From NCBI GenBank assembly GCA_947258695.1, contig CAMYJG010000021.1, positions 1 through 37,289 on the forward strand: a stretch of 37,289 nt of DNA. The letters are read 5' to 3'. Source of the stretch: an uncultured Ectothiorhodospiraceae bacterium (lineage in GTDB: Bacteria > Pseudomonadota > Gammaproteobacteria > UBA6429 > Thiohalophilaceae). The notes below the pieces were generated by a model. That model ran no database searches. It was not told the DNA's origin and saw only the letters and a program-made list of their open reading frames with translations. Position 1 is the stretch's first letter. The number at the start of each line of letters is the position of its first letter. This document shows, piece after piece, positions 2,255 to 21,279 of the stretch. The translations under genes and the position numbers were made by a program.

Positions 2255-2295
2255 CTTTAAAATAATGACTAAACTCTTATTTGGGAGTATCGATA

Positions 2296-3282
2296 TTGAT
2301 TAATAAAGTCGCTCTAGTGACAGGGGCAGATGGTTTTATTGGCTCACAACTTACGGAAATGTTAGTAAAAGAGGGCTATAAAGTTAAAGCTCTCTCTTTG
2401 TATAATTCGTTCAATAATTGGGGATGGCTTGAGGATATTGATACGCTAGATGATATTGAAGTTTTAACAGGAGATGTCAGGGATCCTCATTTTTGTAAAC
2501 ATATTACCAAGGACGTTGATATGATTTTTCATTTAGCAGCTCTAATTGCTATACCGTACTCATATATTGCGCCGGATAGTTATGTCGATACAAATATAAA
2601 TGGTACTCTTAATATTTGTCAGGCAGCGTTAGAAAATGAAGTTGAGCGAGTGATTCATACTTCAACAAGTGAAGTCTATGGTACCGCTCAATATACGCCC
2701 ATTGATGAAAAACATCCTCTTCAACCACAATCTCCCTACAGTGCAACTAAGATAGGCGCAGACGCAATGGCGATGAGTTTCTTTAACTCGTTTGATTTGC
2801 CATTAACCATTGCCCGACCGTTCAATACATATGGCCCCAGGCAGTCTGCCCGAGCCGTAATACCAACGATTATTACTCAAATAGCCAATGGCAAAAAGAC
2901 AATTAAATTAGGTGATGTTAGCCCAACCAGAGACTTTAATTATGTTATAGATACATGCCGTGGTTTTGTGGCTGTGGCAGATAGCCAGGATAGTATAGGA
3001 GAAATTATCAATATTGGTTCTAACTACGAAGTATCAATAGGGGATACTTTGAATCTTATAAAAGATATTATGAATAGCGATGTAGAATTTATTACTGATA
3101 AACAACGTATACGACCGAAAAAGTCAGAGGTGAATCGTCTTTGGTGTGATAACACAAAAATAAAAGAAATTACGGGTTTTGAACCAATATATGATTTGAG
3201 GAGTGGCCTCAAAGAGACTGTTGAATGGTTCTCTGATACTAAAAATCTTGGTAAGTATAAATCAGATATTTACAATGTATGA
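2296..3282 (+). CDS. legB: LegB-like NAD-dependent sugar-nucleotide 4,6-dehydratase
   Basis: An extended short-chain dehydrogenase expected to convert GDP-GlcNAc (or UDP-GlcNAc) to the 4-keto-6-deoxy sugar, the first dedicated step towards legionaminic acid. The NAD-binding motif GADGFIG is at the N-terminus, followed by TSTSEVYG (about 122-129) and the catalytic YSATK (Tyr148, Lys152); RPFNTYGPRQ is typical of dehydratases. I prefer the TTG start at 2296 because GGGAG at 2283-2287 sits 8 bases upstream; the frame stays open to a TTG at 2281 that would include this ribosome site in the gene. That gives 328 residues. It is the first gene after the ops site. A GDP-linked substrate is inferred from the PtmE-like gene at 17511. 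Confidence 0.85.
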   Translation: MINKVALVTGADGFIGSQLTEMLVKEGYKVKALSLYNSFNNWGWLEDIDTLDDIEVLTGDVRDPHFCKHITKDVDMIFHLAALIAIPYSYIAPDSYVDTNINGTLNICQAALENEVERVIHTSTSEVYGTAQYTPIDEKHPLQPQSPYSATKIGADAMAMSFFNSFDLPLTIARPFNTYGPRQSARAVIPTIITQIANGKKTIKLGDVSPTRDFNYVIDTCRGFVAVADSQDSIGEIINIGSNYEVSIGDTLNLIKDIMNSDVEFITDKQRIRPKKSEVNRLWCDNTKIKEITGFEPIYDLRSGLKETVEWFSDTKNLGKYKSDIYNV

Positions 3283-3312
3283 TTATCCCTTTCGAAAAAA
3301 ATCGCCATTTAG

Positions 3313-4392
3313 ATGAATGCAATTAGTGAGAGAAATATTTTGCAGAAGATGTTTATAGCTGAGCGTGAAGTCTCTATTAATACACCTCCGTTAGTGATTG
3401 CAGAGCTGGGTATTAATCATGGCGGTTCACTAGAAACAGCATTCGAAATGGTCGATGCGGCCGCTGCCGCAGGTGTTGAAGTGCTTAAGCATCAAACACA
3501 TGTAGTTGAAGATGAAATGAGTGGTGTTGCTAAAAATGTAATCCCAGGAAATGCTGATATTTCTATTTATGAAATTATGGCTAATTGTGCTTTATCTGAA
3601 GAAGAGGAATATAAGCTTAAAGAATATGTAGAATCGAAAGGAATAATATTTATCAGTACACCATTCTCTCGTGCTGCTGCAGATAGACTAAAAAAAATGG
3701 ATATTCCAGCATACAAAATTGGTTCAGGAGAATGCAATAACTATCCATTAATTAAGCATATTGCTGATTTTGGCAAACCTATAATTCTAAGCACTGGAAT
3801 GAATACGATTGATAGTGTGAGTAAGGCAGCCAAAATTATTGAAGAAGCAGGCGTGCCATATGCGTTGCTTCATACAACAAATATTTATCCTACACCTCAT
3901 CATTTAGTGCGTTTAGGTGCAATGGTTGAGCTGGCAAAGGCTTTCCCTAACGCTCTTATTGGATTGTCAGATCACACGACTGATAACCTAGCCTGTTTGG
4001 GTGCGGTAGCATTAGGTGCATGCATTCTCGAGAGACACTTTACTGACCGTATGGATCGAGAAGGTCCTGATATTGTTTGTTCAATGGATATTCAAGCATG
4101 TCGCGAGCTTATTGACGGAAGCCAGATTCTGCAGTTGGAACGTGGTGGTGTAAAAGGCCCTGTAGCTGAAGAACAGCCGACAATTGATTTTGCATTTGCA
4201 ACTGTAGTTGCTATTAAGCCAATAAAAGCTGGAGAAAAGTTTGACGAAACAAATATTTGGGTAAAACGTCCAGGAACGGGGTCTATTCACGCGGAACGAT
4301 TTGACGAGGTGCTTGGGAAAATTGCTTTGTGCGATATTTCTGTTGATGAGCATATTTCACCGAGTCAAATTGATAACTTCATCAAGTTTTAA
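3313..4392 (+). CDS. legI: N-acetylneuraminate/legionaminate synthase family (NeuB/LegI)
   Basis: A PEP-dependent nonulosonic acid synthase expected to condense 2,4-diacetamido-2,4,6-trideoxymannose with PEP. The NeuB TIM barrel shows [10 protein letters not shown] near the N-terminus, STPFS, and the metal-binding histidines in LSDHTT (His221) and LERHFT (His242). The C-terminal part (about 290-359, including [11 protein letters not shown]) is the antifreeze-like SAF domain that in NeuB helps hold the N-acyl group. An internal ATG at 3349 (MFIAEREV...) resembles the usual LegI N-terminus and may be the true start; neither start has a clear Shine-Dalgarno sequence. It differs from the second NeuB-like protein at 8525, which has no SAF domain. 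Confidence 0.88.
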
Positions 4393-4425
4393 CGCCAATA
4401 TACAAAGTAGTTATATAACGGTTTC

Positions 4426-5277
4426 ATGGAAATTCTAGTAACTGGTGCATCTGGTTTTATTGGAAGACATTTGACAATTGCATTGCAAAAGATATCTGAT
4501 GTAAATGTTATTCCAGTGTCAAGAAAAAATATAGATCTTCCTGGTGCAATAGTGCTGGAAAATTATAAAGATATACCATTAGCGGATGTGATAGTGCATC
4601 TTGCAGAAAATCCTGATCGAAATGCGGTGAATGAATTGTCTGTTAGCTCTACACCACCTTCTGTTCCCATTTTAGAAAGTTTTCTGAATAAAGGGTTTAA
4701 AAATATAATTTATAGTTCATCAAGTGCAGTTTACGGTGATGAAGAGGCAACTCCACATAAAATATCAGATCCCGTTTTTGGTGCTGATGTCTACGCGAAG
4801 GCTAAAATAATGTGCGAGAAAATGGTGCTTGGTTCTTCTGGAGGATTAGTTGCCCGGTTTTCAAATTTATATGGTCCTGGAATGTCGCAAAAGAACGTTA
4901 TCTCAAAGATCCTAAGTCAGTTGCCATGTAAGGATGTTGTGAAAATCTGGGATGATACTCCTATTCGTGATTTCCTCTGGATTGATGATGCAGTCGATCT
5001 TTTAGTGAAAATGGCGTTAAGTAGAGGTTCGGGGATATACAATGTGGGTTCAGGAGTAGGTACTTCAATTCGGGAGCTAGTTAAACAGGCTACGGAGATA
5101 ATGAAGTGCAATGATTGTTCGATTGAGGTTGCTCATTCTAAAAACAAGTTATCCTGCATTCAGTTAGACATTACAGAAACAAAAAAAAATTTTAACTGGT
5201 CTCCTGAAACCAGCTTGGCTGATGGCCTCAGGATTATTTTAAACGGACATGATAAAGCAGAAAAAATAAATGGCTAA
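4426..5277 (+). CDS. NAD-dependent epimerase/dehydratase family protein
   Basis: A 283-residue extended SDR with the N-terminal dinucleotide motif GASGFIG, a serine-rich SSSSAVYG segment and a YAKAK catalytic pair. C-terminal elements include RDFLWIDDAV and YNVGSG, as in sugar 4-epimerases and reductases. It overlaps the LegG-like gene by 8 bases, so the two are probably translationally coupled and in the same pathway. It is short for a 4,6-dehydratase, and a dehydratase already exists at 2296, so a 4-epimerase or a ketone reductase is more likely. The exact substrate cannot be read from sequence. Confidence 0.75.
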   Translation: MEILVTGASGFIGRHLTIALQKISDVNVIPVSRKNIDLPGAIVLENYKDIPLADVIVHLAENPDRNAVNELSVSSTPPSVPILESFLNKGFKNIIYSSSSAVYGDEEATPHKISDPVFGADVYAKAKIMCEKMVLGSSGGLVARFSNLYGPGMSQKNVISKILSQLPCKDVVKIWDDTPIRDFLWIDDAVDLLVKMALSRGSGIYNVGSGVGTSIRELVKQATEIMKCNDCSIEVAHSKNKLSCIQLDITETKKNFNWSPETSLADGLRIILNGHDKAEKING

Positions 5278-6490
5278 ACGTGTTATAGCAATATTTACAG
5301 GTAACCGTGCTGAATACGGGCTTCAGTTTCCAATACTGCAAGCTGTAGATCAACACCCAGAGCTTGAGTACAAATTATTGGTGTCAGGGGCGCATTTAGA
5401 TGAGAACTTTGGACGAACATTAGCTGAAATAGAAAAAGATGGTTTTCGAGTTGACGCTGAAGTAAAAATAGAAATGGATGCAGATTCGTTATTTGCAACT
5501 GCGCAAGCGATCGGTTCTGGTGTCTTGTCGCTTAGTAAAGTGTTAAATGATATCAAGCCCGACTTAATGGTGGTTTATGCAGATAGATTTGAGGGGTTAG
5601 CTGCGGTAATTGCATCCAGTCAAATGAATATACCCACAGCTCATATCGAAGGTGGTGATTTAACTGAAGGTGGTGCATTAGATGATTCCGTACGTCATGC
5701 GATGACAAAATTATCACATTTACATTTTACAACTAATCAGCAGGCATCAAATCGAATTCTAGGTATGGGCGAAGAAGCATGGCGCGTTCATACCGTCGGA
5801 TTCCCAGCAATTGATATGATATCCAACGGTAATTATGCCTCAGAGAAAGAAATTATCGATAAACTTGCTTTGGATCTGGATAAGCCGATTGTTTTATTTA
5901 CTCAGCATTCTGTTACAACAGAGTTTGATGATGCTTCAAGTCAAATTAAGCCATCTTTAAATGCGCTTAAAAAGTTGGCGAGTGATGGAGTGCAAGTGAT
6001 ATGCACATATCCAAACAATGATGCAGGTGGTCAAGCAATAATAGAAAAGTTAGCTCAGCTAGAAACTGAAAATATCGCAGGCATTCAGATACATATATCT
6101 CTTGGGCGTTATTTGTATCATGGTATTCTTGGGTTAGCGAAAGACATGAATAAAAAAATTGCTTGTGTCGGCAATTCTTCATCTGGGATTAAAGAAACCC
6201 CAGTGTTTGGCTGTCCAACAGTGAATATTGGCTCACGTCAAGAGGGGCGATTAAGAGGCAAAAATGTCCTCGATGTTACTTATAATGAAAAAGAAATTCA
6301 CGATGCAATAAAGAAATGTCTTTTCGATGGTACTTTTAGGCAACAATGCAGCTCTACGGATAACCCGTATTACCTGGGAGATGCCGGGAAAAAAGTAGCG
6401 GATGTCCTAGCCTCTGTTGTGCTAGATCAAAATTTAATTCGAAAAAAAATGACATTGCGTGGTGAGGTCAAAGATGGTTGGTATCGGTGA
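5270..6490 (+). CDS. legG: Hydrolysing NDP-N-acetylhexosamine 2-epimerase (NeuC/LegG family)
   Basis: Expected to invert C2 and release the nucleotide from NDP-diacetylbacillosamine (or UDP-GlcNAc), giving the mannose-configured substrate for the NeuB-type synthase. The GT-B-fold epimerase family is shown by TGNRAEYG at the N-terminus, YADRFE, HIEGGD, the nucleotide-binding GNSSSGIKE and NIGSRQEGR. At 406 residues it is slightly longer than typical NeuC, with a short C-terminal tail ending in GWYR. The start overlaps the end of the preceding SDR. NeuC and LegG cannot be separated by eye; the LegB and PtmE-like genes favour LegG. Confidence 0.87.
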   Translation: MAKRVIAIFTGNRAEYGLQFPILQAVDQHPELEYKLLVSGAHLDENFGRTLAEIEKDGFRVDAEVKIEMDADSLFATAQAIGSGVLSLSKVLNDIKPDLMVVYADRFEGLAAVIASSQMNIPTAHIEGGDLTEGGALDDSVRHAMTKLSHLHFTTNQQASNRILGMGEEAWRVHTVGFPAIDMISNGNYASEKEIIDKLALDLDKPIVLFTQHSVTTEFDDASSQIKPSLNALKKLASDGVQVICTYPNNDAGGQAIIEKLAQLETENIAGIQIHISLGRYLYHGILGLAKDMNKKIACVGNSSSGIKETPVFGCPTVNIGSRQEGRLRGKNVLDVTYNEKEIHDAIKKCLFDGTFRQQCSSTDNPYYLGDAGKKVADVLASVVLDQNLIRKKMTLRGEVKDGWYR

Positions 6491-6563
6491 AAAAAATTTG
6501 GCGGCTATAAATGTTTGATGTTTTAATGATTTTTCCGCGAATAATAAAAGCACTTAGATATTT

Positions 6564-7283
6564 ATGAGAATATTATGTGTCATAGCGGCGAGAGGTGGGA
6601 GTAAAGGTGTCCCAGGTAAAAATATTCGTTTATTGCATGACAAACCTGTCATTGTCTGGGCAATAGAAAAAGCACTTCTTATACAAAAAATAGATCGGGT
6701 AGTGGTTAGTACCGACTCGCCTGTATTTGCCGATATAGCAAAAAAATCTGGGGCTGACGTTCCATTTCTTCGTCCTGCAGAACTGGCAAATTCTCAGGCA
6801 GGAAAATTTCAGGTGTGGCAGCATGCACTCAAAGCGTGTGAAGAATTTTATAATGAGAAATATGATATATACATTGATCTGGACTGTACAAATCCACTGA
6901 TTGATATAGAAGACATAGAATCATCCATCAGTAAATTCCAGAAAAGCAGAAAAAAAGGTGTTGATGCAATTTTTACTGTTTGCCAGGCGCGCCGAAATCC
7001 GTACTTCAACTTAGTTGAAGCCGATTCAACAGGAGCCTTAAAGATGAGCAAAAGTTTGCCAGAAAAGATTTTGTGCCGGCAGAATGCGCCTGTCGTATAT
7101 GAGCATGTTGCCGGAGTGTATGTACTTGACCCCGACTATATTCGTACCGCTAATCATTTATTGGATGGACATACAGAAGGGTATGAGGTGCCTGAAGGAA
7201 AGAATCTTGATATTGATAGTGAATTCGATTTTCAACTTATAGAATATTTAATGTCGAACAAAATAAAATCGAGTGATCAGTAG
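6564..7283 (+). CDS. legF: Acylneuraminate/legionaminate cytidylyltransferase (NeuA/LegF family)
   Basis: Activates a nonulosonic acid with CTP to the CMP-sugar donor. The CTP-binding motif ARGGSKGVPGKN begins near residue 8, with DRVVVSTDS, the acidic YIDLDCTNPL where a more usual enzyme has LQ(P/A)TSPL, and the C-terminal NLDIDSEFDF segment that contributes metal ligands. At 239 residues it has the single-domain size, with no fused hydrolase. It is the last gene of the legionaminic-type block. A second, different cytidylyltransferase (9939) lies in the next block, which suggests two different CMP-ulosonates. Confidence 0.88.
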   Translation: MRILCVIAARGGSKGVPGKNIRLLHDKPVIVWAIEKALLIQKIDRVVVSTDSPVFADIAKKSGADVPFLRPAELANSQAGKFQVWQHALKACEEFYNEKYDIYIDLDCTNPLIDIEDIESSISKFQKSRKKGVDAIFTVCQARRNPYFNLVEADSTGALKMSKSLPEKILCRQNAPVVYEHVAGVYVLDPDYIRTANHLLDGHTEGYEVPEGKNLDIDSEFDFQLIEYLMSNKIKSSDQ

Positions 7284-7363: not shown

Positions 7364-7987
7364 GTGGAAGAAACAACAAAGATTAATTTGGATGGGATTC
7401 GCAAATTATTTATTGATTCGATTGAAACAAAAAAACAATTGCTTGATGGTGATTGTTTAAATGTGCTTGCTCGAATGGGGGATTCTATTGCAAACGCTAC
7501 AAAACAGGGTGGAAAATTAATGCTCTGTGGCAATGGAGGTTCTGCCGCAGATGCACAACATTTAGCAGCTGAAATGTTGGTACGATTGAGGCCTAAAAAT
7601 AACCGTGAAGGGATCGCTGCTCTAGCCCTATGCCAGGATACTTCAACGATAACTGCATGCGGCAATGATTTTGGTTATAACAAACTTTATGAACGTATGG
7701 TGAAGTCATTAGGGAAAGAAGGGGACATACTTTTAGCAATTACGACATCTGGCAATTCAGAAAACATTATTCTAGCATTGAAAGCAGCAAAGGAGCTTGG
7801 TATTAAAGCTTTTGGATTTTTGGGCGCTGGAGGTGGTAGTGCTCTTTCCTTGTGTGATGAAGCTTTTCTTGTGCCAAGCAATGATACTGGGAGGGTGCAG
7901 GAGTCACATATAACAGCAGGGCATGCCTTAATGGAATACGTGGAAGATAGATTGCTTGAAGATGGTTTTATTGCTCTTGAAGATTAA
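7364..7987 (+). CDS. GmhA-like SIS-domain sugar-phosphate isomerase
   Basis: A single SIS domain of 207 residues in the sedoheptulose-7-phosphate isomerase (GmhA) family. The phosphate-binding CGNGGSAADAQHLAAE segment, TTSGNSEN and the C-terminal ESHITAGHALME are clear. Glu70 and His182 match the catalytic Glu/His pair known for E. coli GmhA. The start is GTG, with AGGGA at 7352-7356 as ribosome site. It sits immediately before the KdsC-like phosphatase and the SAF-less NeuB-like synthase, so it may supply an aldose phosphate to that synthase rather than heptose for the LPS core. A duplicated heptose-pathway role remains possible. Confidence 0.8.
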   Translation: MEETTKINLDGIRKLFIDSIETKKQLLDGDCLNVLARMGDSIANATKQGGKLMLCGNGGSAADAQHLAAEMLVRLRPKNNREGIAALALCQDTSTITACGNDFGYNKLYERMVKSLGKEGDILLAITTSGNSENIILALKAAKELGIKAFGFLGAGGGSALSLCDEAFLVPSNDTGRVQESHITAGHALMEYVEDRLLEDGFIALED

Positions 7988-8005
7988 CCGAAAGATATAA
8001 GTTAT

Positions 8006-8515
8006 ATGAATAAAATTGAGATTCGTTTGAGAGACTTGGATGCACTAGTTTTTGATTTTGATGGTGTTTTGACGAATAACCGAGTCATTTTAGATGAAAA
8101 CGGCAATGAGTGGGTCAGTTGTAATCGTAGCGATGGATTAGCTTTTGATGTATTCCGTAAACTTAGAACTAAAGTATATATCTTTTCTACTGAAAAAAAT
8201 CTTGTTGTGAGTGCTCGAGCTAATAAGCTGGGTGTACCTGTTCTACAGGGAATTGGGAACAAGGTAGATGCATTAAAAACATTAGTGACTGATGAAAAAC
8301 TCAAGTTATCAAGGATTCTATATATAGGCAATGATCTAAATGATTTGCGCGCAATGAAGTTGTGTGGTTATTCGGTATGCCCAGCTGATAGTCATCCGAG
8401 AGTCGTAGAAGAAGCCACCATTACTTTGCAAAAGAATGGTGGCGATGGTGTTGTTAGAGAACTTGTCGAAGATATTCTGAACGAAGATATTCTTCAAATA
8501 CTTTATCCTGAATGA
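8006..8515 (+). CDS. KdsC-like HAD phosphatase
   Basis: A 169-residue HAD-superfamily phosphatase without a cap domain, like KdsC (KDO-8-phosphate phosphatase) and the N-terminal part of some CMP-sialate synthetases. Motif I is DFDGVLT (nucleophile Asp17, acid/base Asp19), motif II is the STE segment, and GNDLNDLRAM carries the motif III/IV acidic residues. It is expected to remove phosphate from an ulosonic acid phosphate. It lies between the sugar-phosphate isomerase and the second NeuB-like synthase, and its stop codon overlaps that gene's ribosome site (TGAGGA). Together these imply that this block works through phosphorylated intermediates. Confidence 0.82.
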   Translation: MNKIEIRLRDLDALVFDFDGVLTNNRVILDENGNEWVSCNRSDGLAFDVFRKLRTKVYIFSTEKNLVVSARANKLGVPVLQGIGNKVDALKTLVTDEKLKLSRILYIGNDLNDLRAMKLCGYSVCPADSHPRVVEEATITLQKNGGDGVVRELVEDILNEDILQILYPE

Positions 8516-8524
8516 GGAAAAAAT

Positions 8525-9367
8525 ATGGCTATTTTTGTAATTGCAGAGATCGGTATAAATCATAACGGTGATTTAGATGTTGCCAAAGATCTGATTAATG
8601 TTGCTGTTGATGCGGGTGCTGATGCGGTGAAGTTTCAAAAGCGTGACATTGATAAAGTGTATACGCAAGAGCTTCTTGACTCACCAAGAGACAGTCCATG
8701 GGGAACAACCCAAAGAGAACAAAAAGCAGGCCTCGAGTTTGGGATCGATGAGTACCAGGAGATCAACAACTATTGTAATGAAAAAGATATTGAGTGGTTT
8801 GCTTCTGCCTGGGATTTAAATAGTCAAGAATTTCTCCGGCAATTTCCTTGTAAGTACAATAAAATTGCATCAGCTATGATTGTTGATGAGGGGTTGCTTA
8901 AAATGGTGGCCTCAGAAGGGAGGCATAGCTTTATATCAACAGGTATGAGTACACATAAAGATATAGAAAGGGCAGTAAATATTTTCCGTGAGGCAAACTG
9001 TCCTTTTGAATTAATGCATACTGTTTCCACTTATCCAATGAAAGATGAACACGCAAACTTGAAATGTATTCCTATGCTCAGTGAGCGATATGGATGCGAT
9101 GTCGGATATAGTGGGCACGAGGTAGGATTAGCCGTTTCCTATGCTGCAGCTGCATTAGGAATCACATCCCTGGAACGGCATATCACATTAGATCGTTCTA
9201 TGTATGGCTCTGATCAGTCTGCTTCAGTTGAGCCTGCAGGTTTCCGGCAGTTAGTTGGGGCTGTGCGAAAAATAGAAGCGGCGATGGGTGATGGCGAGAA
9301 AAGAATACTAGACTCAGAAGTGCCAATTGCAAAAAAATTGCGTGAACATTTAAGTTGGGAAGCATAA
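8525..9367 (+). CDS. NeuB-fold ulosonic acid synthase lacking the SAF domain
   Basis: The NeuB TIM barrel is complete: IAEIGINHNG near the N-terminus, KFQKRD, SAWDLNS, and the metal-binding histidines in GYSGHE (His198) and LERHIT (His219). The protein ends at 280 residues without the antifreeze-like domain that in NeuB contributes an arginine contacting the N-acetyl group of ManNAc. I infer an acceptor without that N-acyl group, plausibly a phosphorylated neutral aldose, because a GmhA-like isomerase and a KdsC-like phosphatase lie directly upstream. The ribosome site GAGGAAAA is strong. It may be a KDN-9-phosphate-synthase-like enzyme or something undescribed. Confidence 0.82.
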   Translation: MAIFVIAEIGINHNGDLDVAKDLINVAVDAGADAVKFQKRDIDKVYTQELLDSPRDSPWGTTQREQKAGLEFGIDEYQEINNYCNEKDIEWFASAWDLNSQEFLRQFPCKYNKIASAMIVDEGLLKMVASEGRHSFISTGMSTHKDIERAVNIFREANCPFELMHTVSTYPMKDEHANLKCIPMLSERYGCDVGYSGHEVGLAVSYAAAALGITSLERHITLDRSMYGSDQSASVEPAGFRQLVGAVRKIEAAMGDGEKRILDSEVPIAKKLREHLSWEA

Positions 9368-9386
9368 TAGGACAAAATTAAGCGAT

Positions 9387-9926
9387 ATGCTGACACCCAT
9401 TGTACTCAAAAATGATTTTTTATCTATTGAGCCTGTATCAATGCAGTGGCTTGATGATTTTCATGAATACTCAGTTAAAGAAGAATTGTATGACTACCTA
9501 GAGTTTAAACCGTTTCAGTCTATCGATGAGACCAGGGCTTACCTGCAAAAATTAATGAATCGTTCAGCTAAAGATACAGCACAATATTGGTTTATTAGGC
9601 TAATAGACGAGGACAAGGTTGTAGGTTCAGTTGGTTTGCATGGTCATGATCCAGTCAGGCAAAGCATTGAAATTGGATATGGAGTTTCACCTGATTACTG
9701 GGGGCAGGGCGTTTTTAGTTCGGCTGCTTTATTGTTAATTGAATATGTATTTAAAGATATTGGTGTTCATAGGCTTGTTGCCAGGACTGCATCTGAAAAT
9801 GAGGCTTCGATCAGAGGTCTGGAAAAGTTAAAGTTTAAACGAGAAGGGATTATGCGTGATTATTATAAGTTTTCAAATGGAAATTGGCATGATGCAATTT
9901 TGCTTTCCAGGCTAAGTACGGACTGA
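9387..9926 (+). CDS. GNAT-family N-acetyltransferase (RimJ/RimL type)
   Basis: A 179-residue acetyl-CoA-dependent acyltransferase. The GNAT core shows GSVGLHGHD, EIGYGVSPDYWGQGVFSSAA (the acetyl-CoA pyrophosphate loop) and the ARTASENEASIRGLEKLKFK segment usual in the RimJ/RimL subgroup. Flanked by ulosonate synthesis genes and an aminotransferase two genes on, it probably acylates an amino sugar, as the GNAT enzyme PseH does in pseudaminic acid synthesis. Canonical LegH is a hexapeptide-repeat protein, so this would be an unrelated solution if it serves the legionaminic pathway. Confidence 0.82.
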   Translation: MLTPIVLKNDFLSIEPVSMQWLDDFHEYSVKEELYDYLEFKPFQSIDETRAYLQKLMNRSAKDTAQYWFIRLIDEDKVVGSVGLHGHDPVRQSIEIGYGVSPDYWGQGVFSSAALLLIEYVFKDIGVHRLVARTASENEASIRGLEKLKFKREGIMRDYYKFSNGNWHDAILLSRLSTD

Positions 9927-9938
9927 ACTTAAAAAGAT

Positions 9939-10670
9939 ATGGTTTGTGCACTAATTACTGTACGTTCGACTTCTAGCCGACTTCCTGAAAAGTGTTTCCT
10001 GCCCTTTGGAGAATTCAGTGTTCTTGAACATATAATAAAACGTACGCTACATTTTGGTTTAGAACCTATTGTGTGTACAACGCGAGATAAGGATGATGAT
10101 AGGATTCAGCAATTAGCCTCTAGCTCAGGTGTGCGCTGTTTTCGAGGATCAACAATTAATAAGCTTCAACGATGGCGTGATTGCTGCAGGATGTTTGATC
10201 TCGACAAGTTCCATACTGTTGATGCCGATGATCCTTTCTTTGATGGCAGGCTCGTACTCGAAAGTATGAAAAAACTTAATACTGGGTATGATGTTATCGA
10301 ACCAACTATCTCATCTAGCGCAGGTGGTGCTAGTGTTGGTTATTCTTTGAGATATCAAATAGTAGAAAAAGCCTGTGAGAACTTAGAAGATACGGCTGAT
10401 ACTGAAATGATGTGGTATTTCCTTGAAAAGATACCCGGTGTAAGGAAATGTACACTAAACGAAATTGATTCTAATATACCGGATAAGCTTCGCCTTACTC
10501 TTGATTATGAAGAAGACTATTGGTTGCTACAGAGCGTTAGAAGAATGTTAGGAAATTTGGCGAGCAGGACCGAAATCAATCAACTCTTCATTGATAATCC
10601 GGATTTGTACAAAATAAACTGGTTCAGAAATGAAGAGTGGCAGGCGGGCCAGAAAGATAAAAGTATATAA
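9939..10670 (+). CDS. SpsF/KdsB-type cytidylyltransferase family protein
   Basis: A 243-residue protein of the cytidylyltransferase fold shared by KdsB, NeuA and SpsF. The N-terminal nucleotide loop reads VRSTSSRLPEK, as in SpsF-type proteins (RxxSSRLPGK), and HTVDADDPFFD carries the aspartates expected to bind the metal. SpsF-type members occur in surface-glycan loci, often beside NeuB-like genes. Here it would be the second CMP-transferase in the locus and may activate the product of the SAF-less synthase. The fold is clear; the substrate is inference. Confidence 0.78.
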   Translation: MVCALITVRSTSSRLPEKCFLPFGEFSVLEHIIKRTLHFGLEPIVCTTRDKDDDRIQQLASSSGVRCFRGSTINKLQRWRDCCRMFDLDKFHTVDADDPFFDGRLVLESMKKLNTGYDVIEPTISSSAGGASVGYSLRYQIVEKACENLEDTADTEMMWYFLEKIPGVRKCTLNEIDSNIPDKLRLTLDYEEDYWLLQSVRRMLGNLASRTEINQLFIDNPDLYKINWFRNEEWQAGQKDKSI

Positions 10671-10690
10671 ATTTAAGGGTTACATATTTT

Positions 10691-11899
10691 ATGGCAAATA
10701 GTGAAAAAGCATCTGTTGGTAAATTCTCTGGTAACGAACTTAAATACATTACGGAATACCTGGAACACGAGAATCCAAATAAAGATCCTCGATCATGGAC
10801 ACAACGACTAGAAGAATCATTTCGTAATTACATGGGTGTTAAACACGCGATTACTTGTAACTCAGGGACATCTGGATTACATATGGCGTTGGCTGCAGCC
10901 GGGGTTGGTCCTGGGGATGAAGTGATCAGTCCAGCACTTACTGTCGTGATGGATGCATATGCGATTCTACACAGGGGCGCGGTACCAGTATTTGCTGATG
11001 TTGACTTGTTAACATATAACATTTTGCCTGAAGATGTTGAAAGAAAAATTACTAAAAAAACAAAAGCAATTATAGTTGTGTCCCTTGAAGGGCTGTCGGT
11101 TCACATGAATCCTATCATGAAATTGGCTGAAAAATATAATTTGATAGTTATAGAAGATACTGCACAATCTTTGCTTGCAAAATACCATGGGAAATACACT
11201 GGAACCATTGGGCATATTGGTGTTTATAGTTTTGAAAATAAAAAACACATGACCTCAGGCAGTGAAGGTGGCATGGTTGTTACTAATGACGAAAGACTTG
11301 CTATAAGGGCAAGAAAATTCGGAGGTATTGGATACAAGCATATGTCGGCGGATGCAGGACGTACATCTTTAGCGCTATCATCTGTGCAAGATCCTGATTA
11401 CGAGAGATTTGATACTATTGGTTTAAACTATCGTATGTCAGAAGCTTGCGCAGCCATAGGGTTAGGCCAGTTTGAAAGAATTGAGAAAATAATTGAAAGA
11501 CGACAAGAGTCTGCGCAATTATTTTCTGATGCAATTGATGGTTGTGGCTGGATGGTACAACAATATGTGCCAGAAGGCTATGTGAATTCTTATTATACAT
11601 TTGCTGTCGATTATAAGGGCGAAGATAATATAGGAGTAAGCTGGAAGGAATTCTATGCTAGTTATGTAGAAATGGGCGGTGATGGTTTCTATAGTGCATG
11701 TGTTATACCATACTTGGAGCCAGCATTGCGTGACAAAGAAATAAATGGAAAGAAACTTAGTGATAGCAAATGTACTGTGGCAGAAGGATTGCAAAAAAGG
11801 ATTATGCAATTCAAGACAAATTATAGAGATATGGATATTGCAAAACGCAAGGCAGAAGTATTAAAAAAATTACTCTGTAGACTGGATATGCCAAAATGA
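10691..11899 (+). CDS. DegT/DnrJ/EryC1/StrS-family PLP aminotransferase
   Basis: A sugar aminotransferase that would convert a keto-sugar to an amino-sugar using glutamate. Family features are CNSGTSGLHMAL (PLP phosphate site), VIEDTAQS (Asp binding the pyridine nitrogen) and SFENKKHMTSGSEGG with the Schiff-base Lys185. LegC and PseC relatives usually read closer to NK-x-(I/L)-T-TGGGG; the SEGG form resembles perosamine-type or KdnA-type members more. It overlaps the next gene by 4 bases (ATGA), and a Gfo/Idh/MocA dehydrogenase follows, a natural keto-then-amino pair. It is the only aminotransferase in the window, so it could alternatively serve the legionaminic pathway. Confidence 0.85.
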   Translation: MANSEKASVGKFSGNELKYITEYLEHENPNKDPRSWTQRLEESFRNYMGVKHAITCNSGTSGLHMALAAAGVGPGDEVISPALTVVMDAYAILHRGAVPVFADVDLLTYNILPEDVERKITKKTKAIIVVSLEGLSVHMNPIMKLAEKYNLIVIEDTAQSLLAKYHGKYTGTIGHIGVYSFENKKHMTSGSEGGMVVTNDERLAIRARKFGGIGYKHMSADAGRTSLALSSVQDPDYERFDTIGLNYRMSEACAAIGLGQFERIEKIIERRQESAQLFSDAIDGCGWMVQQYVPEGYVNSYYTFAVDYKGEDNIGVSWKEFYASYVEMGGDGFYSACVIPYLEPALRDKEINGKKLSDSKCTVAEGLQKRIMQFKTNYRDMDIAKRKAEVLKKLLCRLDMPK

Positions 11900-12720
11900 A
11901 AAATAGTAGCCACGGAATATATGGAGCAGTTCAGGGCAGGTTGATACAATCTCCACCTGGAGAGTTACAGTGGTTTCCACAAGAAAACTGGGAATCCGAG
12001 TTTTTTTTAGCGAATGCTCTTGGGTTTTCTTATATTGAGTTGATAGCTGAAGAACAACATAATGAATTAAATCCTATATGGACAGATGCTGGAATAGAAA
12101 GAATAAAATCGCTAGTAGAGGACAACCAGCTAATTTTACCATCAATATGTAATGACTATATTATTCCTCACTCGTTACTAAATAGCTCTGAAGTAGTTGA
12201 GCAAACAAAATCTGTTATAGAACAAGGCAAAAAGCTTGGCGTGTCAATACTGGTATTACCACTATTTAAAGAAAGCGAGATAACAAAATATAACTACAAA
12301 AAATATGTAGATGTTTTGCATGATCTAGCTGAATTTTCAGAAGATAGAAGTATGACTGTATGTCTTGAAACTATTTTAACAGGTGATGAGTTGTTGGGCT
12401 TGTTTGAAGCGGTAAATCATAAAAATATAAAATGTGTTTTTGATACGGGCAATCGAATAGCATTTGGCCACGATATATATACTGACATTGTTAAACTTGG
12501 AGACCACATAGAGCATGTTCATATTAAAGATAAAAATGCTGATAATGAGAATGTATTTTTGGGTACTGGGTTAGTGAATTTCAATCGTGTTTTTGAATCA
12601 CTTAATACAATAAACTACCAGGGGCTTTATACTTTTGAAACAACACGAGGAAAGAATCCATTGAAGACTGCCAGGTTACACAAAGATACAATCGAGTTCT
12701 TCTTACAGGAAAACCTATAA
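11896..12720 (+). CDS. Xylose-isomerase-like TIM-barrel sugar epimerase/isomerase
   Basis: A 274-residue AP-endonuclease-2/xylose-isomerase-like barrel. Metal-ligand positions are visible in CLETIL (Glu), CVFDTGN (Asp), HVHIKDK (His and Asp) and TFETTRG (Glu), so a divalent-metal sugar epimerase or isomerase is likely. It is coupled to the upstream aminotransferase by an ATGA overlap and lies two bases before the Gfo/Idh/MocA gene, so these three act together. The family covers hexulose epimerases, inosose dehydratases and 3-dehydroshikimate dehydratases; the specific reaction is unknown. Confidence 0.75.
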   Translation: MKNSSHGIYGAVQGRLIQSPPGELQWFPQENWESEFFLANALGFSYIELIAEEQHNELNPIWTDAGIERIKSLVEDNQLILPSICNDYIIPHSLLNSSEVVEQTKSVIEQGKKLGVSILVLPLFKESEITKYNYKKYVDVLHDLAEFSEDRSMTVCLETILTGDELLGLFEAVNHKNIKCVFDTGNRIAFGHDIYTDIVKLGDHIEHVHIKDKNADNENVFLGTGLVNFNRVFESLNTINYQGLYTFETTRGKNPLKTARLHKDTIEFFLQENL

Positions 12721-12722
12721 CA

Positions 12723-13760
12723 ATGCATAAAAAAGCTTTATTTATAGGTCTAGGTGGGGCTGGGCAGAGACACTTGAGGAATTTTAAACAATTATATCCT
12801 GATTCGGATGTGGCTGCGATACGTAAAAAGAAACGAACATTTGAAATAGGTATTGATCTAAAGTCTAATGATACGGTCGACATTGTTGAAAAGTATAGAA
12901 TAACTGAGTACGAGGATATCAGTTCCGCGTGTTCATTCGAACCAGACTTTGCAATTGTGGCAAACCCAACATCATTACATTATCAGACAGCAATGGAATT
13001 GTTGGAGAATCGAATTCCTATGTTATTAGAAAAACCGGCATGTACGGAAAATGATAACATTCAATTAGTGTTACAAGCTGCTAAAAAAGCATCCGTTGAT
13101 TTGATGGTTGCATATCAATTGCGCTTCCATCCCTGTGTGACAGAAGCAAAGAAAATTATCGAGTCTGGTAACCTGGGAAAAATTCATTCTGTTGCAGCGC
13201 ATGTTCATTCTTATATGCCTGGGTGGCATCCATATGAAAAATATGAAGACTTATACGCAAGCAGGAAACAATTAGGTGGAGGTGTGATCCTTACTGAAAT
13301 ACATGAGATTGATCTGATATCCTGGTTCTTTGGCCTTCCTGATAGCGTTGTTGCTTTTGGCGGAAAGCTTAGTGATTATAATATTGATGTGGAAGATACT
13401 GTAACATCATTAATGTATTATCAGAATGAGCAGGGTAGTTTTCCTCTAACTTTAAACATGTCATTTATCCAGAATCCTCCGACACGCAACTTTTCTGTTT
13501 TTGGCGAACTAGGGAATATGCACCTGGATATTCCTAATGATGAACTGGCAATTAAATACCACAGCATAGAAGCCGAAGAAATCATGAAGTTGAAGGATTT
13601 TGACAGAAACTCCATGTTTGTAGATGAGTTAAAGCATTTTATAAGTGCAATCGATGAAAATAAACATTCAATGTTATCAATAGAGCATACTATGAAGGGC
13701 CAAATACTGGCGAACGCAGCCAAACATTCATTAAACGAAAACAAGATTATTCATTTATAA
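12723..13760 (+). CDS. Gfo/Idh/MocA-family NAD(P)-dependent oxidoreductase
   Basis: A 345-residue two-domain sugar oxidoreductase. The N-terminal Rossmann domain has GLGGAGQRHLRN, followed by the conserved LLEKPACT motif (catalytic Lys) and the second-domain GGGVILTEIHEIDL helix carrying the usual histidine. In comparable loci such enzymes oxidise a hydroxyl to a ketone for a DegT aminotransferase, for example WbpB with WbpE. Its position after the aminotransferase and TIM-barrel gene fits that. It closes the second biosynthetic block; a 76-base gap precedes the ABC transporter. Confidence 0.82.
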   Translation: MHKKALFIGLGGAGQRHLRNFKQLYPDSDVAAIRKKKRTFEIGIDLKSNDTVDIVEKYRITEYEDISSACSFEPDFAIVANPTSLHYQTAMELLENRIPMLLEKPACTENDNIQLVLQAAKKASVDLMVAYQLRFHPCVTEAKKIIESGNLGKIHSVAAHVHSYMPGWHPYEKYEDLYASRKQLGGGVILTEIHEIDLISWFFGLPDSVVAFGGKLSDYNIDVEDTVTSLMYYQNEQGSFPLTLNMSFIQNPPTRNFSVFGELGNMHLDIPNDELAIKYHSIEAEEIMKLKDFDRNSMFVDELKHFISAIDENKHSMLSIEHTMKGQILANAAKHSLNENKIIHL

Positions 13761-15672: not shown

Positions 15673-16512
15673 ATGAAAAATATCATCTTGGACAAATACA
15701 ATTTGGAAGGTAGAGCTGCCCTTATAACTGGTGGGGCAGGCCTTTTAGGTGTGGAGCATGCATATGCATTATTAACTCTTGGTGCTACTGTCATTTTGAC
15801 CGATTTTGATTATGAATCACTGATAGAAGCAGAAGAAAAACTAAAAGATAGAACTGATGCTGGCAAACTGATTATCCAGAAAATGGATGTTACAAGTTTA
15901 GTTGATATTAAAAATACTGCCGAACATATACAAAGCAACAGTCGTATTGATATTTTAATTAATAATGCAGCCATTGATCCCAAGGTAACAAAGAGCGATG
16001 GCATTCTTGAAACATCTCGATTTGAAAATTTCCCATTAGAACAATGGAATTTACAAGTGAATGTCGGCTTGACCGGCGCATTTTTGTGCAGTCAGATTTT
16101 TGGTAGCGCTATGTCACGAGATGATAAAGGTGGGGTGATTTTAAATATTGCATCTGATCTTTCTGTGATATCACCTGATCAACGTTTATACCGAAAAAAT
16201 GATATTGAAGATCATATGCAGCCAGTAAAACCTGTTACCTATTCAGTTATTAAATCTGGGTTGGTTGGGTTAACTCGCTATATCGCAACCTATTGGGCAG
16301 ACAAAGGTGTTAGAGCGAATGCTCTATCACCAGGTGGTGTTTTTACGGGACAAGACAATGATTTTGTGAAAAGGCTGGAAAACTTGATACCAATGGGGCG
16401 CATGGCAGATCGTGATGAGTATCACGCAGCCATTCAGTTTTTATGTTCAGATGCATCTGCATATATGAATGGTCAGAATATTGTAATGGATGGCGGCCGT
16501 TCGATTTGGTGA
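15673..16512 (+). CDS. PtmA-like short-chain dehydrogenase/reductase
   Basis: A 279-residue classical SDR with cofactor motif TGGAGLLG, NNAA in the central sheet, the catalytic serine in NIASDLS, and YSVIK (Tyr190, Lys194), ending in MDGG. It resembles PtmA of Campylobacter, one of the proteins assigned to the GDP-linked legionaminic acid pathway, and sits two genes before a PtmE-like gene. The insert RLYRKNDIEDHMQPVKPV before the active-site Tyr is usual in this subgroup. Its reaction here is inferred from that similarity only. The last 23 bases overlap the next gene. Confidence 0.8.
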   Translation: MKNIILDKYNLEGRAALITGGAGLLGVEHAYALLTLGATVILTDFDYESLIEAEEKLKDRTDAGKLIIQKMDVTSLVDIKNTAEHIQSNSRIDILINNAAIDPKVTKSDGILETSRFENFPLEQWNLQVNVGLTGAFLCSQIFGSAMSRDDKGGVILNIASDLSVISPDQRLYRKNDIEDHMQPVKPVTYSVIKSGLVGLTRYIATYWADKGVRANALSPGGVFTGQDNDFVKRLENLIPMGRMADRDEYHAAIQFLCSDASAYMNGQNIVMDGGRSIW

Positions 16513-18690: not shown

Positions 18691-19455
18691 ATGCGAGTTA
18701 TAGCTCGTTTGGATGTTAAAAATGAATTTGTTATTAAGGGTATCCATCTCGAAGGGTTGAGGAAGGTTGGCGATCCTTTTCAATTAGCCAAGGCATATTA
18801 CGAAGCTGGAATTGATGAGATAGTTTTCAATGACGCTGTTGCAAGCTTATATGATAGGAATAATTTGTTTTCTGTAATAAGAAAAGCTTCTGAGGAAGTA
18901 TTTGTTCCTATTACTATTGGTGGAGGATTACGTAGTATATCTGATGTTGAGCAAGCGCTGGATTCTGGGGCTGATAAAGTTGCGATAAATACTGCAGCCG
19001 TTAAAGATCCATCAATAATTGAAAAAATCTCAGCCCGCTATGGTAGTCAGTGCGTCGTGGCATCTGTGCAGGCAAAAAAAACCAATAATGGCTGGGAAGC
19101 GTATATTGAGTCCGGGAGAGAGACAACAGGGTTAAATGTAGAAGATTGGGTAATGCGACTGGAAGAATTAGGAGCAGGTGAATTATTGCTTACATCTGTA
19201 GATCAGGAAGGAACAAAATCTGGATTTGATGTTGCTCTTGTGAAAGCAGTAAATCAAACAGTCAATATACCAGTACTAGTCAGTGGTGGATATGGAAAAC
19301 CTGAACATTTAAATGAATTATTCAGTCAGGTTATACCAAGCGGTATATGCTGTGCCTCGGTTTTGCATTACAACATTTATGATGTGAATGAACTTAAACA
19401 GCATGTGCTGAAATCAATGAAAGAGTATACAAATGACGAATATTGCTGTTCTTGA
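18691..19455 (+). CDS. hisF2: HisF-like imidazole-glycerol-phosphate-synthase cyclase homologue (surface-sugar amidation)
   Basis: A 254-residue HisF-fold barrel that in O-antigen loci channels ammonia from the HisH partner to a PseA/WbpG-type amidotransferase. HisF motifs are present: RLDV near the N-terminus, ITIGGGLRS, NTAAV, LLTSVD...GTKSG and VSGGYGK. Asp8 aligns with catalytic Asp11 of T. maritima HisF, but the Asp130 position is Gln127 (ASVQAKK) and the Asp176 position is Glu173, so histidine-pathway cyclase activity is doubtful. The ribosome site AGGTG precedes the ATG. It overlaps the HisH-like gene by 23 bases. Confidence 0.88.
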   Translation: MRVIARLDVKNEFVIKGIHLEGLRKVGDPFQLAKAYYEAGIDEIVFNDAVASLYDRNNLFSVIRKASEEVFVPITIGGGLRSISDVEQALDSGADKVAINTAAVKDPSIIEKISARYGSQCVVASVQAKKTNNGWEAYIESGRETTGLNVEDWVMRLEELGAGELLLTSVDQEGTKSGFDVALVKAVNQTVNIPVLVSGGYGKPEHLNELFSQVIPSGICCASVLHYNIYDVNELKQHVLKSMKEYTNDEYCCS

Positions 19456-20065
19456 CTATGGTTTAGGTAATGTTCGAAGTGTTCGAAATGCACTGCAAGC
19501 TGTTGGCGCAAACGCAATTGTTACCCGTGAACCAGAACAAATTCAAGAGTCTGATGGATTAATTATTCCTGGTGTCGGTTCGTTTCCTCATGGAATGGAA
19601 TGCTTGAATAAATATAAATTAACACCAATTTTGCATAAATATTTTTCAAGTGACCGCCCTGTTTTAGGCATTTGCTTAGGTATGCAGTTGTTGTTTGATA
19701 AGGGACTAGAGTTTTCGAGTACTAATGGGTTGGGAACAATCCCTGGTGTTGTAGATCGAATACCGATTAGTCAAGAAGAAGGACGATTGCCACATATTTC
19801 ATGGTCGACTATAAAGAAAACTCGCTTAGGAAAAGATACGATATTTTTCGATCTAAAGGACAGTGAGCTTCGATTTTATTTCGTCCATAGCTATGCGGCG
19901 GTTGGGGTAGATAAAACAAATATATCAGCAACTGTTAATTACCTTGGAAAAGAGATAGTGGCTGCTGTACAGCATAATAATATATGGGGAACGCAGTTTC
20001 ATCCAGAGAAAAGCGGGCCAAGTGGTTTACACTTGTTATCTAATTTTGTTGCAAGATGCCAGTAA
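19433..20065 (+). CDS. hisH2: HisH-like glutamine amidotransferase
   Basis: A class I glutaminase subunit of 210 residues that releases ammonia from glutamine. The triad is intact: Cys81 in GICLGMQ, with His190 and Glu192 in QFHPEKS. The N-terminal VLDYGLGNVRSV and PGVGSFPHGM are standard for HisH. It overlaps the HisF-like gene and is followed at once by the PP-loop amidotransferase, the same trio as hisH2-hisF2-wbpG in Pseudomonas aeruginosa B-band O-antigen. It should feed that enzyme rather than histidine synthesis. Confidence 0.9.
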   Translation: MTNIAVLDYGLGNVRSVRNALQAVGANAIVTREPEQIQESDGLIIPGVGSFPHGMECLNKYKLTPILHKYFSSDRPVLGICLGMQLLFDKGLEFSSTNGLGTIPGVVDRIPISQEEGRLPHISWSTIKKTRLGKDTIFFDLKDSELRFYFVHSYAAVGVDKTNISATVNYLGKEIVAAVQHNNIWGTQFHPEKSGPSGLHLLSNFVARCQ

Positions 20066-20076
20066 AGGAGAAATTA

Positions 20077-21279
20077 ATGACGGAAACATTTTTTGGGCTT
20101 CCTAGCCAAGTGTTGTTCTGCAAACACTGCGTAATATCTAATCAGCGTCCAAGTTCATCTGTAGAATTTAAACATAGTAAAACTGATTCAAAAGAAACCA
20201 TAGGTTTTGATGATGAGGGGGTATGTGATGCTTGTCGATTTCATGAGAAAAAAGACAAAGAAATTGATTGGGAGAAACGAGAACAAGAGTTAATTAATTT
20301 GTTGGATAAACACCGCCGAAGCGATGGCGGATATGATGTGGTCGTACCAGGTAGTGGTGGTAAAGATAGTGCATACGTATCGCATATTTTGAAATACAAA
20401 TACGGGATGAATCCACTTACTGTTACATGGGCGCCACACAAATATACTAAAATTGGCTGGACTAACTTCGAAAATTGGGTCCATGTTGGTGGTCTAGATA
20501 ATATGTTATTTACACCAAATGGGCGATTACATAGATACCTTACTCAACAAGCATTTTTAAACCTTTTACACCCGTTTCAACCATTCATAGTTGGGCAACG
20601 GATTATTGGCCCAATGATGGCAGCAAAATTTGGTGTTGAGCTAATAATGTATGGTGAAAATCAGGCTGAATATGGGAATAAGCCGGAAGAAAACTATAAA
20701 CCCACAATGGATAAAAAGTTTTTTTCTGCGGGGAATCCAGAGGATATGATATTAGGTGGTAAATTAGTAAAAGACATCATAAAGGAAGGCGAGTTTAAGT
20801 TGAATGACTTTGCTCCCTACATACCACCAAAAAAAGAATTTTTGGAGAGCAAATCAGTAGAAGTTCATTATCTAGGATATTATCATAATTGGGATCCGCA
20901 GGAATGTTATTATTATGCAGTAGAAAATACGGGGTTTCGTGCTAATTCTGAACGTACAGAAGGTACTTACTCCAAATATAGCAGCATAGATGATCAAATT
21001 GACATGTTTCATTACTATACAACGTTGATCAAATTTGGGATTGGTCGAGCAACCTATGATGCAGCACAAGAAATCAGGAATAGCAAAATCACTAGAGAGG
21101 AAGGTGTACGGTTAGTACATAAATATGATCAAGAATTTCCTAAAAAATATTTTAAGGAATTCCTACAATATATTGATGTTAGCGAAGATCTTTTTCGTGA
21201 GACAGTGGATAAATTCAGGTCACCTCATTTATGGGAAAATAAAGATAATGAGTGGGTATTAAAGCACCAAGTCACATAA
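20077..21279 (+). CDS. N-acetyl sugar amidotransferase (PseA/WbpG family)
   Basis: A PP-loop ATP pyrophosphatase-type enzyme that replaces the oxygen of a sugar N-acetyl group with nitrogen, giving an acetamidino group. The PP-loop is PGSGGKDS (91-98). Two CxxC pairs, Cys15/Cys18 and Cys50/Cys53, probably bind zinc. I choose ATG 20077 (400 residues) because AAAGGAG at 20064-20070 lies 6 bases upstream; the frame also opens at 20056 inside hisH. With the HisF/HisH pair it forms the known three-part system. Acetamidino derivatives of legionaminic and pseudaminic acid are known products, so a nonulosonate is a likely substrate here. Confidence 0.9.
   Translation: MTETFFGLPSQVLFCKHCVISNQRPSSSVEFKHSKTDSKETIGFDDEGVCDACRFHEKKDKEIDWEKREQELINLLDKHRRSDGGYDVVVPGSGGKDSAYVSHILKYKYGMNPLTVTWAPHKYTKIGWTNFENWVHVGGLDNMLFTPNGRLHRYLTQQAFLNLLHPFQPFIVGQRIIGPMMAAKFGVELIMYGENQAEYGNKPEENYKPTMDKKFFSAGNPEDMILGGKLVKDIIKEGEFKLNDFAPYIPPKKEFLESKSVEVHYLGYYHNWDPQECYYYAVENTGFRANSERTEGTYSKYSSIDDQIDMFHYYTTLIKFGIGRATYDAAQEIRNSKITREEGVRLVHKYDQEFPKKYFKEFLQYIDVSEDLFRETVDKFRSPHLWENKDNEWVLKHQVT

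Follow-up and report, generated by a model that had tools for sequence, protein, structure and literature searches.

A gene block from an uncultured Ectothiorhodospiraceae bacterium that probably encodes a phosphorylated-route ulosonic acid pathway, with a GmhA-like isomerase beside a SAF-less NeuB-fold synthase

We analyzed a 37,289-nt stretch of contig CAMYJG010000021.1 from an uncultured Ectothiorhodospiraceae bacterium (the window; its genome is called G000), to which all positions refer. A sequence-only reading had proposed that eight genes at 7364–13760 make a ulosonic acid through phosphorylated intermediates, independently of a legionaminic-type set next to them. The interval is filled by eight open reading frames (ORFs), all on the + strand, with gaps of 2–20 bases and one 4-base overlap, and Pfam and NCBIfam scans matched the family assigned earlier to each of the eight. 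In the list below, percentages are identities to homologues in three comparison loci: L033 (a Rhodospirillales metagenome-assembled genome, MAG), L050 (a Thermoplasmatales MAG), and L126 (a viral contig).

7364..7987, + strand: GmhA-like ketose-phosphate isomerase; Pfam SIS_2; Zn/catalytic positions H61, E65, Q172, and H180 of E. coli GmhA kept
8006..8515, + strand: HAD phosphatase like KdsC and the phosphatase of 3-deoxy-D-glycero-D-galacto-nonulosonate (KDN) 9-phosphate; Pfam HAD (Hydrolase_3)
8525..9367, + strand: SAF-less NeuB-fold synthase, predicted to condense phosphoenolpyruvate (PEP), with a KFQKR motif; Pfam NeuB PF03102, 233 bits
9387..9926, + strand: GNAT acyltransferase, proposed N-acylation; Pfam GNAT; homologues adjoin SAF-less NeuB in L033 (40%) and L050 (45%)
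9939..10670, + strand: SpsF-like cytidylyltransferase, proposed activation with cytidine monophosphate (CMP); Pfam CTP_transf_3, 32 bits, partial; L033 55%, L050 46%
10691..11899, + strand: DegT-family aminotransferase; Pfam DegT; L033 49%, L050 49%, L126 43%
11896..12720, + strand: TIM-barrel sugar 3-epimerase-like protein; Pfam AP_endonuc_2; L033 55%
12723..13760, + strand: Gfo/Idh/MocA dehydrogenase; Pfam Gfo/Idh/MocA; L033 33%, L126 38%
15673..16512, + strand: short-chain dehydrogenase/reductase (SDR), probable further block member; homologues in L030, L033, L048, L050, and L126, also in genomes G007 and G015

The eight genes first listed all stand, and the block probably extends to the SDR, which that list lacked: homologues of 49–56% identity adjoin a SAF-less NeuB in all five loci compared gene by gene. 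Among the tailoring genes, the nearest solved relatives of the DegT protein are perosamine synthetases, and the TIM barrel shows a weak likeness to UlaE and IolI.

The synthase at 8525 has the NeuB barrel and lacks the C-terminal SAF domain of the N-acetylneuraminic acid (Neu5Ac), legionaminic acid, and pseudaminic acid synthases, whereas the neighboring NeuB at 3313 carries both NeuB and SAF domains by Pfam. These data bear out the earlier claim that the two synthases are of different types. A structure model of 8525 (mean predicted local distance difference test score, 95) lies nearest to the Leptospira synthetase 6ncs and meningococcal NeuB (Z 35–36), with Z scores of 22–25 to the synthases of 3-deoxy-D-arabino-heptulosonate 7-phosphate and of 3-deoxy-D-manno-octulosonate (KDO) 8-phosphate; SpsE (1vli) is also among its solved homologues. 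K39 and R40 come after the glutamine that we take to bind sugar in NeuB proteins, and these two residues may help to bind phosphate.

The phosphatase at 8006 is nearest to the KDN-9-phosphate phosphatase family (NF058599), with 102 bits against a cut-off of 180, and scores 95 bits against a cut-off of 107 for KdsC. None of the 10 HAD proteins from related loci reached the NF058599 cut-off, the best being that of L022 (154 bits). The HAD and synthase proteins co-varied strongly (Mantel r 0.51, with 0 of 2000 permutations as high).

We then assessed how often these genes recur. Seven aligned synthases were used to search 84,980 species genomes, from which the best 80 of 580 listed candidate loci were kept, and a search of viral contigs kept the best 80 of 553 (L110–L189); neighbors were counted within 6 kb of the synthase on the same strand. 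The control comprised 35 of 45 listed NeuB1-like places outside the window, all gammaproteobacterial; SAF was deduced from matching over the full length, with Pfam confirmation for L202 only. GmhA was found beside the synthase in 31 of 80 genome loci (at most 50 bp away in 18 of 80), compared with 0/35 controls, and the claimed linkage of a GmhA-type isomerase with a NeuB-fold synthase therefore recurs well beyond the window. HAD was present in 46/80 genome loci and 1/35 controls, leaving uncounted a weak match in control L230 (40 bits, other strand); GmhA and HAD occurred together in 18/80. The CMP transferase was of the LegF type in 48 of the genome loci and of the SpsF type in 5, and the remaining families were found at varying frequencies (SDR 38, TIM barrel 30, DegT 12, Gfo 9, and GNAT 4 of 80). 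What recurs is thus a core of SAF-less NeuB and a CMP-sugar transferase, often with a KdsC-like phosphatase, to which a subset of loci adds GmhA, the TIM barrel, and SDRs.

The viral loci showed LegF-type transferases in 66/80, SDR in 47, DegT in 22, TIM barrel in 13, GmhA in 7, and HAD in 2. Three of these seven GmhA matches (L138, L145, and L149) are divergent SIS proteins, leaving four, and some of the 80 loci may be misassigned host contigs. Among phage genome records, 3 matched the synthase and 11 matched GmhA; a PHROGs search yielded no family for the synthase. A plasmid search gave seven weak matches for SpsF and none for DegT at E ≤ 1e-60.

Among 58 relatives, the synthase is present at 76% identity in three other genomes (G007, G012, and G015). 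As in the window, GmhA, HAD, synthase, and TIM barrel all lie near one another in these genomes, whereas the amination gene varies: it belongs to the DegT family in the window and to class III in both G012 and G015, and that of G007 was judged by eye to be class IV. The GmhA of G015 is less like that of the window (132 bits, versus 314 and 318 for the other two), and a methyltransferase-like ORF separates it from HAD. The eight families had been expected to co-occur as a set, an expectation that the survey did not bear out; a fixed eight-gene module was rejected because the full set occurs in L033 only. There, the eight families lie within 11.5 kb, together with an SDR and an ABC transporter, in the order NeuB-GNAT-DegT-SpsF-TIM-Gfo, with DegT and SpsF swapped relative to the window.

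Gene fusions tie the phosphatase to its neighbors. HAD and GmhA form a single ORF in 9/80 genome loci, CMP transferase and HAD in 8/80 (the L103 example lies on the opposite strand, next to a second NeuB), and all three of CMP transferase, HAD, and NeuB in 4/80; beyond these 80, a Nonomuraea record shows the triple fusion and an Azospirillum record the CMP transferase-HAD fusion. In the fused protein of L058, the HAD half matches the KdsC and KDN-9-phosphate phosphatase models and the other half matches phosphoheptose isomerase. The best evidence for placing GmhA in the proposed pathway is this fusion of the isomerase to a phosphatase that would act two steps later.

A wider sample of NeuB proteins was taken because the 80 best loci had been ranked by likeness to the queries and one search pattern held VKFQKR. 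NeuB matches in 397 Pseudomonadota genomes gave 128 places, of which the best-scoring 60 yielded 64 NeuB ORFs; the sample omits the window and G549 (equal in score to G535), and several stretches stop at contig ends. The QKR motif was present in 26/64. HAD lay within 6 kb of 8 of these 26 synthases and of none of the 38 others (Fisher 0.0004, relatedness ignored), and among the QKR synthases it accompanied 7/13 without SAF and 1/13 with SAF. Consistently, the sole control locus with a HAD neighbor, L227, also holds the sole control synthase with QKR. Ten Pseudomonadota NeuB ORFs (L279–L288) combine QKR with SAF and a LegF-type transferase, with no HAD within 6 kb, and possibly form a further synthase class. 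In another set (L289–L292), the NeuB ORFs are 635–641 amino acids long, the motif is QLR or QMR, and a TIM-barrel protein is encoded by its own gene nearby; in L291, NeuB, SAF, and TIM domains share a single ORF.

The isomerase at 7364 is nearest to phosphoheptose isomerase, with 165 bits for TIGR00441 (cut-off 209) and 176 for PRK13936 (cut-off 276). It keeps H61, E65, R69, Q172, and H180, which we take to be the metal-binding and catalytic residues of E. coli GmhA, and H61, E65, Q172, and H180 are kept in 37–39 of 41 NeuB-linked copies. A second GmhA, of the housekeeping type, lies on contig 37 of the same genome (296 bits, above the phosphoheptose isomerase cut-off of 276), next to ORFs read as YraN- and RsmI-like. 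In a tree of 72 rows, comprising 30 gammaproteobacterial copies and E. coli GmhA for comparison and leaving out the GmhA of G015, the window GmhA falls in a supported clade of 12 in which every member comes from a NeuB locus: the window, G007, G012, another gammaproteobacterium, an Azonexaceae MAG, SAR116, three SAR11, Prochlorococcus, Chloroflexi, and a viral contig. The gammaproteobacterial comparison rows were chosen as the best-scoring relatives of the contig-37 copy and are called housekeeping by likeness rather than gene context; most lie elsewhere, but L265–L267 fall among other NeuB-linked rows, and the position of E. coli GmhA is not resolved.

These copies might instead supply a branch of their own for a heptose nucleotide (ADP- or GDP-heptose) that merely shares the locus, which we consider very unlikely. 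Polysaccharide loci can carry GDP-heptose genes, and HldE is above cut-off in the window genome as well as in G007, G012, and G015. All four of these genomes, however, hold a separate GmhA, which in the latter three is above the gmhA cut-off; G458 likewise has a further copy. Moreover, HldE was not above cut-off in six genomes that carry a NeuB-linked GmhA, namely G458, SAR11 G664, SAR86 G665, and Lachnospiraceae G660–G662, so ADP-heptose is not a general explanation. G458 is a single contig, 100% complete, with a best HldE match of 32 bits; G660–G665 come without a completeness value, which makes gene absences there soft, and in Prochlorococcus G663 the match is ambiguous (205 bits against a cut-off of 345). 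The fusion partner of GmhA is KdsC-like, the only sugar-1-phosphate nucleotidyltransferase tested in the window (17511) scored 79 against a cut-off of 300 for HddC, and no kinase was found among the 25 commonest families in 83 neighbor ORFs, which leaves room for one in rarer families.

Together, these data suggest that the block, within an O-antigen-type locus, directs the synthesis of a ulosonic acid by a phosphorylated route, a reading to which we give a probability of about 0.65. In the proposed scheme, the dedicated GmhA-family isomerase would convert a ketose phosphate to a manno-configured aldose phosphate, the SAF-less NeuB would add PEP to form a 3-deoxy-ulosonate phosphate, the phosphate would be stripped by the KdsC-like HAD, and the SpsF-like transferase would join the product to CMP. 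Our best guess for the Gfo/Idh protein, the TIM barrel, and the SDR is that they edit the sugar by oxidation, epimerization, and reduction, with DegT and GNAT placing an acylated amine. Each of these reactions, like their order and the substrates, is what we infer; the sequences themselves show the gene content, its recurrence and fusions, the kept GmhA residues, the lack of SAF, and the motif association. The phosphorylated logic proposed earlier has good support by inference, as a KdsC-like HAD recurs beside SAF-less and QKR synthases and is fused to pathway neighbors.

The KDN-9-phosphate pathway of Bacteroides thetaiotaomicron (BT1714 and its neighbors) and Prymnesium parvum resembles this scheme in using a NeuB-fold synthase on an aldose phosphate and PEP, a KdsC-like phosphatase, and CMP activation; it differs in its substrate, mannose 6-phosphate (Man-6-P), and the available part of the source describes no GmhA, DegT, GNAT, TIM-barrel, or Gfo protein for it (PMC6200933). 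Since the window phosphatase is below the cut-off of the KDN-9-phosphate family and the substrate given for the block is a prediction, we regard the block as a further form of KDN-like ulosonate synthesis through phosphorylated intermediates rather than as a KDN pathway. The KDO pathway (KdsD, KdsA, KdsC, and KdsB) shares the sequence of isomerase, PEP-dependent synthase, phosphatase from the same HAD family, and CMP transferase, but the only Pfam family of the window synthase is NeuB and not that of KdsA, and the isomerase is GmhA-like, without CBS domains. The Bacillus subtilis Sps set includes SpsE, the solved homologue mentioned above, and its SpsC–SpsF genes presumably group DegT, GNAT, NeuB, and SpsF-like functions; we know of no GmhA or KdsC-like gene in it. 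The KdnA and KdnB enzymes of 8-amino-8-deoxy-KDO synthesis offer a DegT aminotransferase that acts on a ulosonic acid, and the KdnA-type structure 5k8b ranks fifth among the solved matches of 10691; perosamine synthetases match better, however, and a KdnB-type alcohol dehydrogenase was not noted in the block.

The TIM barrel has a precedent in the Serratia marcescens KL1 and KL2 loci, whose capsules contain KDN and Neu5Ac and in which, according to the portion of the source at hand, a NeuB required for sialic acid is joined to a COG1082 TIM-barrel domain (PMC9000132). The NeuB-SAF-TIM ORF of L291 is similar, whereas in the window the TIM barrel is a separate gene and NeuB lacks SAF. Among the open-licence papers listed, we found none that joins GmhA to a NeuB pathway or names a decaulosonic acid, in agreement with the earlier reading, which knew of no described route joining the two enzymes; in the available text of one paper that also treats nonulosonic acids, gmhA figures as a core-heptose gene.

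The identity of the aldose phosphate would decide between a nine- and a ten-carbon product. Should GmhA act on sedoheptulose 7-phosphate, as its named relatives do, the product would have ten carbons, an outcome that we put forward tentatively, at less than even odds. Sedoheptulose 7-phosphate from central metabolism would be isomerized to D-glycero-D-manno-heptose 7-phosphate, condensation with PEP would give a ten-carbon 3-deoxy-dec-2-ulosonate 10-phosphate, and the KdsC-like phosphatase and CMP transferase would finish the route. D-glycero-D-manno-heptose 7-phosphate has the C2–C5 configuration of mannose. This shared manno configuration, the GmhA family identity, the dedicated extra copy, and the retention of GmhA where HldE was not found make a plausible case for ten carbons. 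There may exist an undescribed class of heptose-7-phosphate ulosonic acids, with amination and epimerization variants, whose carriers include SAR11, Prochlorococcus, gut Lachnospiraceae, an archaeal MAG, and some viral contigs, although we regard this as somewhat doubtful. An ORF of the transaldolase/fructose-6-phosphate aldolase family touches GmhA in L126 alone, which is a hint only. Transketolase was not used as a sign of sedoheptulose supply: besides several SAF-less loci and control L227, the non-QKR NeuB of L301 also has a transketolase-like or E1-like ORF nearby.

The main rival is a KDN-type nine-carbon product, in which the synthase converts Man-6-P to KDN-9-phosphate or a modified KDN, with the isomerase at 7364 serving as a fructose-6-phosphate/Man-6-P isomerase or an auxiliary; this is a serious contender, at a little under even odds. 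In the literature examined, the characterized NeuB-fold routes with phosphorylated intermediates lead from Man-6-P to KDN. The synthase of P. parvum, given a panel of seven sugars that did not include heptose 7-phosphate, accepted Man-6-P alone (PMC6200933). The best NCBIfam match of the HAD protein is, although below cut-off, the B. thetaiotaomicron KDN-9-phosphate phosphatase. On the other hand, the isomerase keeps the GmhA catalytic positions, and a type II Man-6-P isomerase domain (the only type searched) is already present in G000, G007, and G012, so a dedicated Man-6-P isomerase looks needless there.

Several further observations weigh against our proposal, and some of them favor the nine-carbon alternative. 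GmhA co-varied only weakly with the synthase (Mantel r 0.19, with 41/2000 permutations as high), compared with r 0.51 for HAD. By mutual-information ranking, no synthase column clearly separated, by eye, the 34 GmhA-positive from the 39 GmhA-negative rows. Microbacterium G655, Herbidospora G656, and Caulobacter G647 each carry a SAF-less synthase, with no GmhA found at E ≤ 1e-10, and GmhA is absent from many other SAF-less loci. In the wider sample, GmhA lay near 1/26 QKR synthases; by these counts, the QKR synthases have the phosphatase as a regular partner, and beyond the kin of the window GmhA accompanies them only occasionally. The GmhA halves of two of the nine HAD-GmhA fusions (L054 and L060) lack the glycine-rich motif and are perhaps structural or regulatory remnants. 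All eight families occur together in just 1/160 genome and viral loci, L033, whose GmhA is a divergent, long-branch row in the tree. Both GmhA and HAD of the window are under every named-family cut-off, and the presence of QKR in the 80 best genome loci is partly circular.

The neighboring set (2281–7283) had been called legionaminic-type, with bounds of 2296–7283. Its LegB dehydratase supports that label (522 bits, cut-off 475), but no LegC or PseH-like gene is over cut-off within the window: 10691, the sole DegT, scores 197 bits for LegC (cut-off 420), and 9387, the sole GNAT of the block, scores 33 bits for PseH (cut-off 93), leaving the label doubtful. The neighboring NeuB (KHQTH motif) is 66–67% identical to the synthases of L202 and L203, which adjoin NeuC-like genes without a LegB match, and L191 shows the same order LegB-NeuB-SDR. 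The product of this set may be Neu5Ac-like or a 9-deoxy acid instead of legionaminic acid.

DegT and GNAT could act as the missing LegC and LegH of this set, leaving GmhA, HAD, NeuB, and SpsF to make the second acid. The presence of LegB without partners over cut-off and the frequency of DegT beside SAF-type NeuB (21/35 controls) would fit such an arrangement, which we nevertheless consider unlikely. DegT, GNAT, and SpsF homologues adjoin SAF-less synthases in L033 and L050, as does DegT in L126, at the identities listed above; within the stretches examined, LegB had no match in L033 or L050 and in L126 matched nothing closer than a 30% epimerase, and L033 keeps the gene order apart from the DegT/SpsF swap. 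These three genes are thus more likely to belong to the block, as the proposed phosphorylated pathway has them.

If the proposed pathway is correct, some of the genes that now carry the annotation N-acetylneuraminate synthase act in a phosphorylated route of their own, recognizable by the absence of SAF, the QKR motif, and KdsC-like and GmhA neighbors or fusions. In marine and gut bacteria and in viral contigs, the GmhA-bearing branch could then yield ulosonic acids with longer chains than those of sialic acids, and the surface-sugar structures predicted for many genomes would change.

Finally, the surroundings of the block include further genes of note. HisF-like, HisH-like, and WbuX/PseA-like genes lie at 18691–21279; such a gene set is known for the acetamidino modification of sugars. 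A UvrB-like ORF, read from its translation, occupies 44–2062 just upstream of the sugar locus, and one is also found directly upstream of GmhA in G012 (L028, 8104–10173), perhaps marking a common locus boundary.

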